Positions 4,439-31,616 of a stretch of 64,000 nt of DNA are shown here, one piece after another. The stretch comes from Acidovorax sp. DW039 (GTDB taxonomy: Bacteria > Pseudomonadota > Gammaproteobacteria > Burkholderiales > Burkholderiaceae_C): the NCBI RefSeq assembly GCF_037101375.1, contig NZ_AP029019.1, forward strand, positions 3,882,001-3,946,000, given 5' to 3'. Position numbers and translations under genes: made by a program. Within the stretch, counting starts at the first letter, position 1. Every line of letters begins with the position of its first letter. The notes below the pieces were generated by a model. The model was not told the origin of the DNA and did no database searches. It saw only the letters and a program-made list of their open reading frames with translations.

Positions 4439-5179
4439 TCAGCCCTTCAGCCGCAGCGTATCGACCAAAGCCTGCAGATGGACCGCCCACTCGCGGCGAT
4501 CGCGGCCCTGCGGGGTTTCGGGTTCGCCATAGGTCACCACCGCCTCAATGGCCGGGGCGCTGAGCGTGCGCCAGATGGAGCCGAGCAAGGTCTCGTCGCC
4601 GATATAGCTGGGAGCGAAGCTGGTGGCACCGGTGGCCCGATCCACGAAACGGAGCCCTACAGGCTGCACAGGTGCATTGGCCAGCACCGCAGCCTGCAAC
4701 AGGTTGGCATGAAAAGGCAGCATGGTGCGCCCATCGCCCGTGGTGCCTTCAGGAAAAACCGCGAGCACCTCGTGGCGTTCCAGCGCCTCTTGCATGGTGC
4801 GCACCATGCGCATGGCGTCGCGGCGCGAGCTGCGCTCAATGTAGAGCGTGCCGCCCGCCGTGGCCAGGGTGCCGATCAGCGGCCAGCCCTGCACGTCCGA
4901 CTTGGAGATGAAGCAGCAGTGGCGTGCCGCGTGCATGACCGGAATATCCAGCCACGAGATGTGATTGGCCACCAGCATGATGGGCCCGCCCACGGGGGGC
5001 TGGCCCTGCACCCGCAGGGAGATGCCGGCACAGGCCAACAGCTGCTGTGACCAGACTTGAACCCTGATGTATTGCTGCTCTTGCGACAGACGGGGAAACC
5101 GCACCGTGACCACCCACAGACCGTGCAGCACATGGCCCAGCAGGCGCAGCATGCGCCAGACGGCTCGCAGGACTTTCAT
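4439..5179 (-). CDS. plsC: 1-acyl-sn-glycerol-3-phosphate acyltransferase (PlsC-type)
   Basis: This 246-residue membrane-associated acyltransferase adds the second acyl chain to lysophosphatidic acid (or a related lysolipid) in phospholipid synthesis. The HX4D catalytic block is present (NHISWLD, ~93-99), as is the substrate-binding FPEGTT motif. The N-terminus is hydrophobic (LLGHVLHGLWVVTV), consistent with inner-membrane attachment. It is the last gene of the yqgE-ruvX-pyrR-pyrB-pyrC' series, 57 bp after pyrC', and is probably co-transcribed. The exact lysolipid substrate (phosphatidate versus ornithine-lipid type) cannot be settled from motifs alone. Confidence 0.88.
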   Translation of the reverse strand: MKVLRAVWRMLRLLGHVLHGLWVVTVRFPRLSQEQQYIRVQVWSQQLLACAGISLRVQGQPPVGGPIMLVANHISWLDIPVMHAARHCCFISKSDVQGWPLIGTLATAGGTLYIERSSRRDAMRMVRTMQEALERHEVLAVFPEGTTGDGRTMLPFHANLLQAAVLANAPVQPVGLRFVDRATGATSFAPSYIGDETLLGSIWRTLSAPAIEAVVTYGEPETPQGRDRREWAVHLQALVDTLRLKG

Positions 5180-5236
5180 TGCGGGATGGCGCTGACGGCG
5201 ACGATCGGGCGAGACACGATGGGTAACACGCAGCGA

Positions 5237-6538
5237 TCAGCCCCGCTCACGCTCAAAGGCCAGTTGGCCGCCCACCAGCGTGGCACGCACGCTGCCAGGC
5301 AACTCGTAGCCAGAAAACGGTGTGTGCTTGCCTTGGCTGCGCAGGGCCGGTGCATCGACCGTCCATGCGGCCTGCGGGTCGAACACGCACAGGTCGGCCA
5401 CGCCGCCTTCCACCAGTTGCCCAACGCTGGCCTGCAAGGTGCCCAGGGCGGAACCCAGGACACGCGCAGGTTCTGCCGTGACCACGGCCAGCGCGCGCGC
5501 CAGTGGCACGCCCTGGTCTTGCGACCACTTGAGCGCCAGGGACAGCAGAAGCTCCAGCCCGGTAGCTCCCGGTTCAGCCTCGGCAAAGGGCAGGGTCTTG
5601 GCGTCTTCGTCCACGGGGTTGTGGTCCGACACGAGCGCGTCGATGGTGCCGTCTGCCAGCGCAGCACTCAAGGCATCGCGGTCACGCTGCTGACGCAGCG
5701 GGGGCGACAGGCGAGCGCGGCTGTCGAAGAAGCCAATGTCCACATCCGTGAGGTGCAACGAGTTGATGCTCACGTCGGCCGTGACTTTGAGGCCTTCTGC
5801 CTTGGCCTGGCGCACCAGCTGCACACCTGCAGCGCTGCTGATACGGCACAGGTGCACACGCGCGCCGGTGGTCTTGAGCAGTTCAAAAATGGTGTGCAGG
5901 GCAATGGTCTCTGCGGCCACGGGCACGCCAGAAAGGCCCAGGCGCGTGGCCAGGGGGCCGCTGGCCGCCACGCCCTTGCCCAGATGCATCTCCTGCGGGC
6001 GCAACCACACGGTGTAGCCGAAGGTGGCGGCGTACTGCAGCGCACGTTGCAGCACCTGGGTGCTGGCCAGCGGCACCTCGGCCTGCCCAAAGCCCACGCA
6101 GCCGGATTCGGTCAGCTCGGCCATTTCGGTCAGCACTTCGCCTGCCAGACTGCGTGTGAGCGCGCCCAAGGGGAAGAGGCGCGACTGGTACAGCTTTTCG
6201 GCGCGGAACTTGAGCATTTCCACCAGCCCAGGTTCGTCCAGAACCGGGTCGGTATCGGGGGGGCATACCAGGCTGGTCACCCCGCCTGCCACGGCAGCGG
6301 CCATTTCGGATTCGAGCATGCCTTCGTGCTCATGGCCGGGCTCGCGCAGGCGCGCTGCCAAGTCCACCAGGCCGGGCAGCACGATGCAACCGGCTGCATC
6401 CATAGTGCGGGTGGGCGCAAAGTCTGCCGGAGTGCGCAGCAAGCCCACGATGCGCCCTGCAGCCAGGGCCACATCGCCCACCTGGTCCAGCCCGCTGTGG
6501 GGGTCGATCACACGGCCGTTCTTGATGAGTATTTTCAT
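5237..6538 (-). CDS. pyrC': Dihydroorotase-like protein PyrC' (predicted non-catalytic ATCase partner)
   Basis: This 433-residue amidohydrolase fold matches type I dihydroorotases end to end (MKILIKNGRVIDP..., PGLVDL..RLREPG). The metal site is destroyed. The family D-x-H-x-H motif reads D-L-A-A-R at ~59-63, and the later zinc His in the 'H-V-S' block is Arg (LCRISS). The SDHNP aspartate is kept. In Pseudomonas and relatives such inactive PyrC' (PyrX) subunits assemble with PyrB into a dodecameric aspartate transcarbamoylase. I infer the same role here, with a true dihydroorotase encoded elsewhere. It follows pyrB but is separated from it by a 197-bp gap holding two dispersed repeats, unlike the tight pyrB-pyrC' coupling of pseudomonads. 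Confidence 0.88.
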   Translation of the reverse strand: MKILIKNGRVIDPHSGLDQVGDVALAAGRIVGLLRTPADFAPTRTMDAAGCIVLPGLVDLAARLREPGHEHEGMLESEMAAAVAGGVTSLVCPPDTDPVLDEPGLVEMLKFRAEKLYQSRLFPLGALTRSLAGEVLTEMAELTESGCVGFGQAEVPLASTQVLQRALQYAATFGYTVWLRPQEMHLGKGVAASGPLATRLGLSGVPVAAETIALHTIFELLKTTGARVHLCRISSAAGVQLVRQAKAEGLKVTADVSINSLHLTDVDIGFFDSRARLSPPLRQQRDRDALSAALADGTIDALVSDHNPVDEDAKTLPFAEAEPGATGLELLLSLALKWSQDQGVPLARALAVVTAEPARVLGSALGTLQASVGQLVEGGVADLCVFDPQAAWTVDAPALRSQGKHTPFSGYELPGSVRATLVGGQLAFERERG

Positions 6539-27767: not shown

Positions 27768-30161
27768 TCAGAAGTCGTAACGCATGCTCACGTTCACGCT
27801 GCGCGGGGCACCCCAGGTGTAGTGCAGCGCACCAAAGTTCGTGACACCTGAGAAGTAGGCCTTGTCAGTGACGTTGAGCAGGTTCACGCCCACGCTCCAG
27901 TGCGGGTCGATCTGGTAGCGGGCCGTCAGGTCCAGCAGCCAGTAGGCAGACTGGCCTAATGTGGCGCTGCCGCTGCTGACCGAAATGGCGCTTTGCCAGC
28001 GTGTGGCCGCGCCCACCATGAGGCCCCGCAAGGCGCCCTCGGCAAAGCGGTAGGTGGTTCCCAGCTTGAACTGGTGGCGCGGGTACGCGCTGGCGCTGGT
28101 CAGGCTGCTGCTGTTCATCACATAGCTGCCCTGGGCCTGCCATCCAGATGCAAGTTGACCGGACATCTCCAGCTCAAACCCGTGGCGGCGTGCGCCCTTG
28201 ACTGCCCGGTAAGCGGGATCGCCTGAAGGGGTGGTGCCACCGGTTTCTTCCGCCGTGTTGTCGGTATGCATCCAGAAGTGGCTGATGCTGGCGTTGAGCC
28301 GCTTGTCGAAGAACTCGCCCTTGGCCCCCACTTCATAGGTCACGCCTTTTTCAGGCTCCAGCGTGCGGCCCTGCTCGGTCTGGCCACTTTGGGGTTCGAA
28401 GATGCTGGTGGCGCTGCCGTAAAGCGATACATCGCGGCCTACGTCCAGCACCAGACCTGCGTAGGGGGTGAACACGCCCCGTTCCTTCATGTCGTAGTTC
28501 CACCAAAACGGGGTGGTGTCCTTGCGTTCGTAGTCGGTGGCGCGTCCGCCCACAATCAGCCGCAGTGGCTCGGCCAGATGAAAACGGCCTGCGCCGTAGA
28601 CATAAGTCTGCTGGCGCGTGAAGCGGTTGTCGCCATACGTCCAGCCCGCAAAATCCGGCTGCTGCAGCGCACCACCCCCTTGCCCGTACACCACGCCCAG
28701 ATCGGCCAGCGGCACGTTGCGCGAATCGCCCAGCAGCATGTCGCCCCGGTAGTGCGACGTGCCCAGCCCGGCCACCAGCTCGTGCGTGCGGCCCCACCAG
28801 TCCACGCTCCCCTGCAGGTCCAGGTTCACCGTCCAGTTGCGGTTCTTGGAGTCCTTCCAGTGGTTGAGAAAGGCGGTGCTCTCGTCATACAGATGGCCCA
28901 GGCGCATCTCGTCCATGGTTACGTTCTGGTGGCCCACCTGCAGCTTGGCCTTCCAGTCACCAGACAGGCGCTGCTCCAGCCGCGCAAACAGTCCAAGCGA
29001 ATCTTGCCCGTACCCCGTCCAGGAGGCACCGGTGTTGAATGAGCGGGGCTGCCAGCCCACGAACTGCCCTGTGCGCGTGTACGCCAGGATAGGCTGGGTG
29101 CTGCCCATGCCATCTACCGTGCGGTGGCGATAGGTGAAGCCCGCGCTGAACAAGGTGTCGGGGGTCAGGTCTGCCTCCACCGCCCCAAACAGCATCTGGC
29201 TGGATTTCTTCTCGTGGTCACGAAAGCTGTCGCCCTCGGCTGCCGATGCCACCAGCCGCGCACGCAGCGATCCCACCGCGTTCAGCGGGCCTGCAAGGTC
29301 TACCTCAGCGCGGCGGTTACCCCAGCTGCCCAGGGCTGCCGATGCGCTGGCCTGGAACTCGCGCGTGGGCCGCTTGCGGATCATGTTGATGCTGCCGCCC
29401 AGGGCTCCATAACCATTGAGCAGACCTGAGGCGCCCTTGAGCACCTCAATGCGGTCGATGTCGGCCATGTCGTCCAGGGAGTACAAGGTGCTGGAGAAGA
29501 AATACCAGCCATCGGCAAACTGCCGCACGCCATCGGTGAGCAGGTTCACGCTGCTGCCACGCGACTGGAAGTCGATGGCGTTGCCCTGGCGGTGCACGGT
29601 CACCCCGGGGGTCTGCTCGATCACATCGGCCAGGGTTTCGAGTTTGAAGTCATCCATGCGCTGGCGCGTCATCACGGTGACGGACTGTGGCGTCTCGCGC
29701 AAGGTGAGCGGCAGGCCGGTGGATGCGGTGGTCGGCCCTGCAGCGGTGTAGCTGCCGGTGCCTTCGGTGCTGCTGTCGCGCACGGCGGCAGCGGTCACGG
29801 TGACCTCTCCCAGGGTGCGGCTGTCGCGGGCCACACGCTCCACCACCAGTGTGCGACCTTGCACGCGGCCCTGCAGACCGCTGCCTGCCAGCAGTTCGCG
29901 CAGCGCGTCGGCGACGTCGCGCGGGCCTTGAACTGCAGGCGCACGGCGGCCTTCGGCCAGCTCGGGAGCAAAGGCCAGTTGGAGACCTGCCTGCGCCGCC
30001 AGTGTCGCCAGCGCGGGGGCCAAGGGCTGTGCGGGCACATCAAAGCGTACGGTTTGGGCTACTGCATATTGCAGCTGCGCTGCCAGGCCCAGGGCCAGCA
30101 CAGCGCGGGCCACGGCGTGGCGGCGGGGGGCAGGAGAAAGCACAAAAGCGTTGGGGGTCAT
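27768..30161 (-). CDS. TonB-dependent siderophore receptor with N-terminal STN signalling domain
   Basis: This ~797-residue outer-membrane receptor has a signal peptide (~1-36, ending AVAQ) and then an STN domain (VRFDVPAQPLAPALATLAAQAGLQLAFA...). A plug domain follows (TETPQSVTVMTRQRMDDF-like; SRGSSVNLLTDGVR) and then a long barrel ending in the usual aromatic C-terminus (SMRYDF). STN domains pass ligand occupancy to FecR-type inner-membrane regulators. The fused sigma/FecR gene is 75 bp upstream on the same strand, which makes this a cell-surface signalling pair. The siderophore type (FecA/FpvA/FoxA-like) cannot be named. The ATG at 30161 gives a proper signal peptide; a start at 30221 would add 20 residues. 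Confidence 0.93.
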   Translation of the reverse strand: MTPNAFVLSPAPRRHAVARAVLALGLAAQLQYAVAQTVRFDVPAQPLAPALATLAAQAGLQLAFAPELAEGRRAPAVQGPRDVADALRELLAGSGLQGRVQGRTLVVERVARDSRTLGEVTVTAAAVRDSSTEGTGSYTAAGPTTASTGLPLTLRETPQSVTVMTRQRMDDFKLETLADVIEQTPGVTVHRQGNAIDFQSRGSSVNLLTDGVRQFADGWYFFSSTLYSLDDMADIDRIEVLKGASGLLNGYGALGGSINMIRKRPTREFQASASAALGSWGNRRAEVDLAGPLNAVGSLRARLVASAAEGDSFRDHEKKSSQMLFGAVEADLTPDTLFSAGFTYRHRTVDGMGSTQPILAYTRTGQFVGWQPRSFNTGASWTGYGQDSLGLFARLEQRLSGDWKAKLQVGHQNVTMDEMRLGHLYDESTAFLNHWKDSKNRNWTVNLDLQGSVDWWGRTHELVAGLGTSHYRGDMLLGDSRNVPLADLGVVYGQGGGALQQPDFAGWTYGDNRFTRQQTYVYGAGRFHLAEPLRLIVGGRATDYERKDTTPFWWNYDMKERGVFTPYAGLVLDVGRDVSLYGSATSIFEPQSGQTEQGRTLEPEKGVTYEVGAKGEFFDKRLNASISHFWMHTDNTAEETGGTTPSGDPAYRAVKGARRHGFELEMSGQLASGWQAQGSYVMNSSSLTSASAYPRHQFKLGTTYRFAEGALRGLMVGAATRWQSAISVSSGSATLGQSAYWLLDLTARYQIDPHWSVGVNLLNVTDKAYFSGVTNFGALHYTWGAPRSVNVSMRYDF

Positions 30162-30236
30162 GCGGAAAACGTCCTCAAGTGAAAAGTGGCTCTTCACTGG
30201 CTGGACGAACGGCGTTTGCAAACCCTGAAGAAATTT

Positions 30237-31574
30237 TTACCGGGGTGCAATCCACACCCCACCGCCCTCCTCTCGCACGGTGCGCACAGGCAGGGTGGCG
30301 GGCAGGGCGCGCAACCAGTCACCCATATCGGCCACCTGCACCGTGCCGCTGATGCGCAGCGCCTGCACGCGGGGGTCTACATGTACGTCCTGTGTGGTGT
30401 AGCGCGACAGGGTCTGCGCCACCTGGGCGAGTGGGGTGGCTTCAAAGTGCAGGCGGCCCGCTCGCCAATCAGCCGCCGTGCCCACCGTGGGCTGCACCGC
30501 ACCGCGCGCCCCCACACGCACCCCCTGCCCTGCGCGCAGCACCACAGGCTGTGCGCCCGGACCGGTGTCTACCTGCACACGACCTTCCTCGACCTGCACG
30601 CGCACGGCACCGTCCGGCTCCAGCTCCACGCCAAAGCGGGTGCCCAGCACCGTGGCCGTCACGCCCGCGGCATGCACGACAAAGGGTCGCGCCGCATCGG
30701 GCTGCACAGCAAAGAAGGCCGCGCCTTCCAGCAAATGGGTGACGCGATGGCGTGCGTCCCAATCCAGGCGCACGCGGGACTGGGCATCCAGCGTGAGGGT
30801 GGAGCCATCCGGCAGCGGCTGCACCAGCCGCCGTGCACGCGGGGTGGCGAAGGCACTGCTCCAGCGCAAGGTCTCGTCGCGCCAATGCCGCCACAGCACC
30901 GTGCCCGTCGTAAACATGCTGACGCCCGCCAGCAATGCCGCCAGACTTTTGCGCCGCGGGGACGAGCGTGGGGCGGTGTGGGAGGACCCAAGTGCCGAGG
31001 GCAGAGCCGGTGCGCCTGCAGCCTCCGCGGATCGTCGAGCGGCATCTCCGCGCCAGTGCAGCAAGGCCGCCTCCATGCGGTCGGCCGCGTGCATGAGGTC
31101 ACGCTCCACCGTGTTGAGCGAAACGCCCAGGCGCTCGGCAATCTGTGCCTGCGGCTCACCATGAATGCGGTGCGCCACAAACACGTTGCGGGCCCTGTCC
31201 GGCAAAGCCGCCAAGGCCGCCTCCACGGCCATCACAGCCTGCCGGTACATCAGGCCCTCAGCCACATCGGGGGCGTGGGTGGCGGGGGCCTGGGTGGCCT
31301 GGCTGCCCTGCACGTAATGGCTCATCCACTGCGCACGGCGCTGGCGGTCCAGCCCAATGTGGGCGGCCACGGTGCACAGGTAAGCACGGGCGTCTTCGGC
31401 CATTTCTGCGCCTGCTGCATCGGCCTGGGCACGCTCGGCCAGGCGCAGCCAGGTGTCATGCGCAATCTCCCGCGCCTCGTCGCTGCTCCCTGTCTTGCGG
31501 CGCAGAAAACGCACCAGCGCGTCGTAGCGCTGGGGAAATTCATGCAACAGGGAAAAGGGGGCGGGGGTGCTCAT
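30237..31574 (-). CDS. Fused ECF sigma factor (FecI-like) and FecR-like transmembrane regulator
   Basis: This single 445-residue protein joins two normally separate regulators. Residues ~15-85 match ECF sigma region 2 (LRRKTGSSDEAREIAHDTWLRL). Residues ~115-166 match region 4 with its HTH (LPDRARNVFVAHRIHGE..IAERLGVSLNTVERDL). A short basic linker leads to one membrane helix (~211-228). Residues ~245-345 match the FecR periplasmic domain (VLGTRFGVELEPDG, VEEGRVQV) and ~375-445 a short STN-like C-terminus. The usual FecR N-terminal anti-sigma helical segment is missing. IutY of Pseudomonas putida is a known fusion of this general kind. Stimulus: probably occupancy of the adjacent receptor. Release by proteolysis is inferred. 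Confidence 0.92.
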   Translation of the reverse strand: MSTPAPFSLLHEFPQRYDALVRFLRRKTGSSDEAREIAHDTWLRLAERAQADAAGAEMAEDARAYLCTVAAHIGLDRQRRAQWMSHYVQGSQATQAPATHAPDVAEGLMYRQAVMAVEAALAALPDRARNVFVAHRIHGEPQAQIAERLGVSLNTVERDLMHAADRMEAALLHWRGDAARRSAEAAGAPALPSALGSSHTAPRSSPRRKSLAALLAGVSMFTTGTVLWRHWRDETLRWSSAFATPRARRLVQPLPDGSTLTLDAQSRVRLDWDARHRVTHLLEGAAFFAVQPDAARPFVVHAAGVTATVLGTRFGVELEPDGAVRVQVEEGRVQVDTGPGAQPVVLRAGQGVRVGARGAVQPTVGTAADWRAGRLHFEATPLAQVAQTLSRYTTQDVHVDPRVQALRISGTVQVADMGDWLRALPATLPVRTVREEGGGVWIAPR

Positions 31575-31597
31575 CTACAGCGCATGATAACGCCTGT

Positions 31598-31616
31598 AAT
31601 GAGAACCAATATCAAT
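31598..31616. promoter_or_regulatory. Fur-box-like site upstream of the sigma/FecR fusion
   Basis: AATGAGAACCAATATCAAT matches a classical Fur-box version in 15 of 19 positions. It ends 24 bp upstream of the fusion gene start codon, a position suited to iron repression of the signalling system. Confidence 0.6.

Follow-up and report, generated by a model that had tools for sequence, protein, structure and literature searches.

The window analysed here, a 64,000-nucleotide stretch of the Acidovorax sp. DW039 genome, carries on its minus strand a gene (30237..31574; ATG at 31574-31572, TAA stop codon at 30239-30237) that encodes 445 amino acids in a single frame without an internal stop. An earlier note on this DNA, made from the sequence alone, had proposed that the functions of FecI and FecR are combined in this one 445-residue frame, and both the domain searches and the intact frame agree. 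The encoded protein comprises sigma region 2 (residues ~17-83), sigma region 4 (~116-164/175), a linker (~176-209), a transmembrane helix (~210-228), and a FecR/PupR-like periplasmic domain (~230-445). Downstream on the same strand lies a gene for a TonB-dependent receptor (27768..30161), which by Pfam and NCBIfam has an N-terminal STN signalling domain and is FauA/FhuE-like. A candidate ECF promoter, CAGG-N15-TCGT (30205..30227, minus strand), is located between the two genes, and a Fur-box-like site (31595..31613, minus strand) lies ~21 nt before the start codon of the fusion gene.

In the Pfam search, Sigma70_r4_2 matched residues 116-164 (50.5 bits, cut-off 25.7) and FecR matched residues 244-334 (66.9 bits, cut-off 24); Sigma70_r2 at residues 17-83 scored 19.3 bits, under its cut-off of 24, and FecR_C at residues 374-440 was weak (20.7 bits, under 24.4). 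The general ECF model of NCBIfam scored 60.9 bits, over its cut-off of 42.9. Positions 60-299 of the NCBIfam FecR model aligned with residues 192-431 at 103.8 bits, under the equivalog cut-off of 385, and because this alignment starts at position 60, the first ~59 model positions have no counterpart in the window protein. The best hydrophobic 19-mer, residues 210-228, is the membrane helix; its location between the sigma and FecR domains fits the membrane tether that had been proposed. The linker measures ~34 residues from the end of the sigma-domain match to the helix, and ~45, the figure given previously, when counted from the end of the Pfam sigma region 4 match at residue 164.

An AlphaFold2 model of the protein (35 alignment rows; mean pLDDT 81.2, pTM 0.52) predicted most of the sigma and periplasmic domains well, and assigned pLDDT values below 50 to residues 188-222, such that no folded anti-sigma segment is predicted there. 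A fold search with this model returned 4M0H/4M0N, a putative anti-sigma factor, and PupR (6OVK_R) with TMt values of 0.84-0.87, and a sequence search returned the same structures along with solved ECF sigma factors, which the sigma half matched by fold as well. The periplasmic half matched PupR 6OVK_R at 82.8 bits by sequence and TMt 0.84 by fold, so that it corresponds to a solved CSS anti-sigma domain by both measures. The order of parts – ECF sigma regions 2 and 4, one transmembrane helix, and a FecR periplasmic domain, all in one frame – is that of IutY, the sigma/anti-sigma hybrid of Pseudomonas putida described for aerobactin (PMC5411451). The idea is therefore not new, as the earlier note had itself recognized.

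The FecR_N sigma-binding tail of a classical FecR anti-sigma factor is missing from the window protein. PF16220 (DUF4880, the FecR N-tail) gave no match in it at E<=1, and was found in 0/31 fused proteins scanned (Pfam at 0.01) compared with 27/29 two-gene FecRs. A tail model built in this analysis matched none of 39 fused proteins, and matched 117 of 119 two-gene FecRs, which are mostly its own training rows. Database annotation of the 120 best of 404 homologues included no PF16220, whereas a sigma-70 and a FecR model were present in all 120. Residues 166-211, where a normal FecR_N might have been found, yielded none by Pfam, NCBIfam, or the tail model. We therefore discarded the possibility of a FecR_N hidden in the linker; the tail is missing wherever the sigma factor is attached, in all cases scanned, as had been suggested for the window protein.

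It was also possible that a sequencing error or frameshift had joined two genes. We identified 404 homologues of the window protein (E<=1e-3) among 7995 scored candidates, and the same single frame is present in the best 120 of these, at 95% to 42% identity, and in other genomes. With hundreds of homologues, a sequencing error is very unlikely, and we excluded artificial joining as the source of the gene. One copy elsewhere (L196, 4906-6288) has its N-terminal sigma part in a different frame from the rest, and is either broken or mis-assembled.

In the host's family we searched 299 genomes; 41 of them gave a match at E<=1e-20, and at least 24 carry the fusion (L010-L033, with L015 partly out of frame); this count is a lower bound because five candidates were scored per genome. 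Of the 17 further genomes with a match we read seven, all of which have two-gene pairs (L034-L040). Several genomes contain two or three copies. The host genome has two ordinary FecI/FecR pairs (L001, L004) in addition to the fusion; it also encodes a 599-amino-acid frame (L002, G000:C1 1508635-1511940) with a FecR domain and no sigma match, the start of which by eye resembles a LysM-type protein. A class-wide scan of 369 genomes, with four candidates scored per genome, gave 21 further matches at E<=1e-30: 19 two-gene pairs and 2 FecR frames at loci where no sigma match was present. A further 94 loci (L061-L124, L127-L156) included no fusion in one frame and 92 two-gene pairs; in one of these further scans, all listed rows that cover both halves carry a stop codon. 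A scan of named genomes returned five loci: three from Delftia, one from Comamonas, and one Streptomyces fragment. In the plasmid search two records covered 80% of the query, one with a single gene (Diaphorobacter) and one joined from two genes, and in the phage search six records matched partially, with none covering 80%. The fusion at L200 (G018:C2) is on a replicon of 761,384 bases, and the plasmid listing includes Diaphorobacter sp. HDW4B NZ_CP049906.1, of 761,384 bases.

The mechanically called receptor frame in the window (27768-30221) begins at a TTG codon at 30221, within the promoter-like site, and the start is likely the ATG at 30161. The nearest models for this receptor are FauA (432 bits) and FhuE (367 bits), under their cut-offs of 900 and 666, from which we would guess at a hydroxamate ligand. 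The linkage between fusion and receptor is widespread: a same-strand receptor gene follows the fusion within about 0.9 kb in 20 of 21 loci (the window and L192-L211), and all 20 receptors scanned contain STN. The largest gap is at L192, where a small open frame is apparent by eye between the two genes. No receptor was detected in the 11-kb locus of L209 (G263, fusion 4743-6275), in which the gene after the fusion resembles at its start an exopolyphosphatase (Ppx/GppA). Among 17 further loci, a wider profile placed a receptor after the fusion in 17/17, including one 1.9 kb away (L218) and one with a receptor frame of only 357 amino acids (L212). At two loci the receptor gene beside an intact fusion is interrupted, by an in-frame stop at L197 (6283-8682) and as two overlapping frames at L202 (2479-5092).

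The promoter-like motif, CAGG/GAGG-N15-16-TCGT, was recognized by eye in the first 21 loci; it occurs after the fusion stop codon in 13 of those 21, with 0.37 expected by shuffling, and the remainder of the loci has 18 occurrences over 242 kb, a rate of 0.02 per 280 bases. In the 17 loci that had not been used for the definition it was present in 13 (0.26 expected), such that it is absent from 8/21 and 4/17 loci. The Fur-box-like site in the window matches 13/19 positions (shuffle p 0.005) of a 19-nt sequence that we take to be the Fur consensus. Sites of at least 12/19 were present upstream of the fusion gene in 12/21 (0.4 expected) and 12/17 loci (0.24 expected). These counts are not independent, because the loci are related: among the 17, L006 duplicates the record of L206, and two Delftia loci, L005 and L007, are close to L206. 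When these three were removed, the promoter-like motif remained in 10/14 and the Fur-like site in 9/14; even among the 14, some loci are close to one another or to loci of the first set. The shuffles preserve single-base content only.

We assembled a 35-row alignment (A1) of the window protein and 34 homologues chosen from the 120 best of 404, and three stretches of it merit attention. Gly311-Thr312, within VLGTRF (codons at 30639..30644, minus strand), is invariant in 35/35 rows, in keeping with its earlier designation as a candidate cleavage bond. FoxR is reported to self-cleave at Gly-Thr (PMC11637429), and by analogy with it we regard this bond as a candidate site of self-cleavage; another report calls the FoxR Gly-Thr nonconserved (PMC7186176). 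Arg207-Arg208, just before the membrane helix (codons at 30951..30956, minus strand), is likewise invariant in all 35 rows, and an Arg-Arg near the helix is found in 29/36 anchored fused proteins and in 83/111 anchored two-gene FecRs. An internal Tat signal has been reported for E. coli FecR (PMC11533796); the arginine pair is possibly such a motif, or only positive-inside charge. Finally, the segment between sigma regions 2 and 4 (residues 102-113, PDVAExxMYRQA) is strongly conserved in the window clade, with P102, D103, M109, Y110, and Q112 invariant in 35/35 rows.

To compare the window protein with IutY we relied on published features of the latter. IutY is 374 amino acids in length, a 168-residue truncation is its sigma domain alone, and a 236-residue truncation retains about 50 periplasmic residues (PMC5411451), which places its helix near residues 168-186. 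We sought orthologues in 328 genomes of one Pseudomonadaceae genus, having located the Pseudomonadaceae through the RsmY RNA family and scored seven candidates per genome. From the matches listed we read 13 in which both halves were covered, no stop was present, and the locus was available. Eleven of the 13 form one group, which on sequence grounds we take to be IutY orthologues. Eight of the eleven are 374 amino acids from the ATG and match 9/9 residues published for IutY (D210, R231, A240, F251, V253, W301, L313, L317, and L320); the other three are 373 amino acids from the corresponding ATG, out of register, with one match each. The same Pseudomonadaceae genus (g500) also holds two more single-frame sigma-FecR fusions, L159 and L160, in one genome each and distinct from IutY. 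L159 lacks PF16220 by Pfam, and L160 has no match to the tail model.

The window protein and IutY are alike in being one polypeptide with sigma regions 2 and 4, one transmembrane helix, a FecR-like periplasmic domain, and no FecR_N; one of the IutY orthologues is among the 31 fused proteins scanned with Pfam. In both cases a receptor gene adjoins (PMC5411451). The earlier note had suggested that the window protein is a reduced version of this architecture, but the comparison points in the opposite direction. The distance from sigma region 4 to the helix in four IutY orthologues is -2 to 6 residues by an automatic measure, as opposed to ~34 residues in the window protein, which therefore has the longer cytoplasmic segment; as FecR_N is missing from the IutY orthologues too and their linker is nearly nonexistent (about 3 residues), we rejected the idea of a reduced IutY. 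The window protein keeps Gly-Thr before a conserved Phe (GTRF), whereas the 11 IutY orthologues have AATF, AARF, or GARF, with a Gly-Thr about two residues earlier in L157, L158, and L176. It also keeps the Arg-Arg before the helix, which is absent in the four IutY rows checked, and its receptor is FauA/FhuE-like by profile.

Separate trees were built for the FecR half (163 rows) and for the sigma half (72 rows), and a third for both halves joined (72 rows). The first two come from quick searches and give one support value; the FecR tree was built without three of the four IutY rows, in which the domain match was too short, and later trees use one IutY row (L158). Each tree requires seven changes between the fused and non-fused state. 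In the joint tree, support is 100/100 for the window clade and 100/99 for the grouping of L159 with a two-gene pair. Among the matches listed, L033 has as relatives seven fused proteins, four of them close (P0122-P0125) and three at 42-44% identity (P0126, P0127, P0133), together with FecRs that stand alone, of which many have FecR_N, for example P0128 (51%) and P0130 (56%). P0128 and P0130 are sister to the L033 group in the FecR tree, with an SH-aLRT of 99.

A single origin of all fusions was rejected by an AU test on 27 rows, in which the all-fused group was set by trait (lnL 227 lower, p 8e-66). Joining the window clade with L211/P0122/P0125 (L211 being the L033 locus with more flank) was also rejected (p 4e-4), and joining it with L159 gave p 0.014; the p values of these and the other groups are weakened because the groups were named after the trees had been seen. 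One clade of the window group and IutY was not rejected (p-AU 0.226), although the two are separate in the trees, where the window protein falls in its own, fully supported clade. The groups tested one by one were thus L211/P0122/P0125, L159, and IutY. We take the direction of change to be from two genes to one, because the splitting of a fused gene would need FecR_N to be regained each time. By these results fusions, which are common in the family, seem to have arisen more than once.

We consider it likely that the window gene encodes an IutY-type cell-surface signalling protein, an anchored sigma factor that would be released through regulated proteolysis and then induce expression of its receptor. 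A tethered sigma factor released in this manner is supported by the neighbouring genes, by the conserved site before the receptor gene, and by the biology of IutY. In the mechanism that we propose, the cytoplasmic ECF sigma domain would be kept inactive because the transmembrane helix and FecR-like periplasmic domain of the same protein anchor it at the inner membrane, with no use made of a FecR_N grip in silencing. A ferric siderophore, perhaps a hydroxamate, would bind the adjacent STN-bearing receptor, whereupon the periplasmic domain of the fusion would lose protection. A periplasmic C-terminal-processing protease would cut the fusion first and RseP second, and the freed sigma factor would use the promoter-like site at 30205-30227 to transcribe the receptor gene. 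When iron is plentiful, Fur would repress the fusion gene.

The host genome encodes RseP (320.1 bits, cut-off 147.55) and one Prc-family protein over the cut-off, in a 479-amino-acid frame, a size that we take to be that of CtpA rather than Prc. The protease making the first cut may thus be a different one from that in P. putida. FoxR is reported not to be a substrate of CtpA, which probably acts on the signalling domain of the receptor (PMC11637429). The release of IutY involves Prc and RseP (PMC5411451), and from this we infer that proteolysis would be needed to free the sigma factor here as well. The linker of ~34 residues, compared with about 3 in IutY, would make for a looser tether, which might not silence the sigma factor by itself.

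Membrane-bound one-component regulators act while anchored, and the sigma factor could do likewise: ligand would alter the periplasmic domain, and the tethered sigma would engage RNA polymerase at the membrane with no proteolysis, its ~34-residue, predicted disordered linker giving it the reach to do so. We think this improbable, given that both Prc and RseP are required by IutY, the only protein with this layout to have been studied (PMC5411451), and that RseP is present in the host. We are equally doubtful that contact, and not tethering, inhibits the sigma factor, through masking by the linker, by the conserved PDVAExxMYRQA segment, or by the FecR_N of another FecR. The five invariant residues of that segment would suit such a role, as would the two FecI/FecR pairs in the genome, but linkers vary widely in length and sequence (the IutY group aside, those of fused proteins have 9 to 36 residues), and the AlphaFold2 model has no confident linker fold.

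The displaced sigma part of L196 and the interrupted receptor genes beside L197 and L202 might be read as signs of a decayed or mis-assembled FecI-FecR pair without function. For the window gene this is very hard to credit: it is already contradicted by residues that are invariant over wide divergence, and the receptor linkage, the promoter-like and Fur-like sites, and the hundreds of homologues all weigh against it.

Several known systems are related to the one described here. The two-gene FecI/FecR systems (FecR, FoxR, FiuR, and PupR) share with it the FecI-type sigma factor, the FecR periplasmic fold (6OVK, 4M0H), and the STN receptor, but comprise two proteins, and FecR_N was present in 27 of the 29 of their FecRs scanned. 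The actinobacterial groups ECF48/52/53 (e.g., SCO4117) similarly have a sigma factor fused to a membrane-anchored regulator with predicted proteolytic release (PMC8999054); they are set apart by their description there, which gives them a zinc-finger (ZAS-like) domain and, as far as that text goes, does not mention FecR. IutY has been placed in ECF243 (PMC8999054), as have FecI-like groups (PMC9249621), and some ECF243 members are marked as proteolysis-type (PMC8999054). IutY has been called unique (PMC5411451, PMC9249621), and is listed as the only experimentally characterised sigma factor activated by proteolysis of a regulatory extension (PMC8999054). The architecture is thus already known; we found no description of the window clade, its spread, or the repeated fusion in titles and abstract starts of the open-licence PMC literature, and an earlier report in the subscription literature or in the ECF classification is possible.

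On balance we lean slightly towards a broader view, in which fusion has been recurrent, with up to seven origins, each without FecR_N, so that the covalent tether alone would stand in for that tail in inhibiting the sigma factor as well as in activating it (the pro-sigma role). The largest clade found, in the Comamonadaceae, keeps the Gly-Thr and the Arg-Arg. With a large clade and other fusions, some of separate origin and all without FecR_N, what had been an exception becomes open to study by comparison. With these proteins one can test whether inhibiting or activating the sigma factor requires the FecR tail, or whether holding the sigma factor at the membrane is enough, and the natural range of linkers, from about 3 to 36 residues, provides a ready series for doing so.
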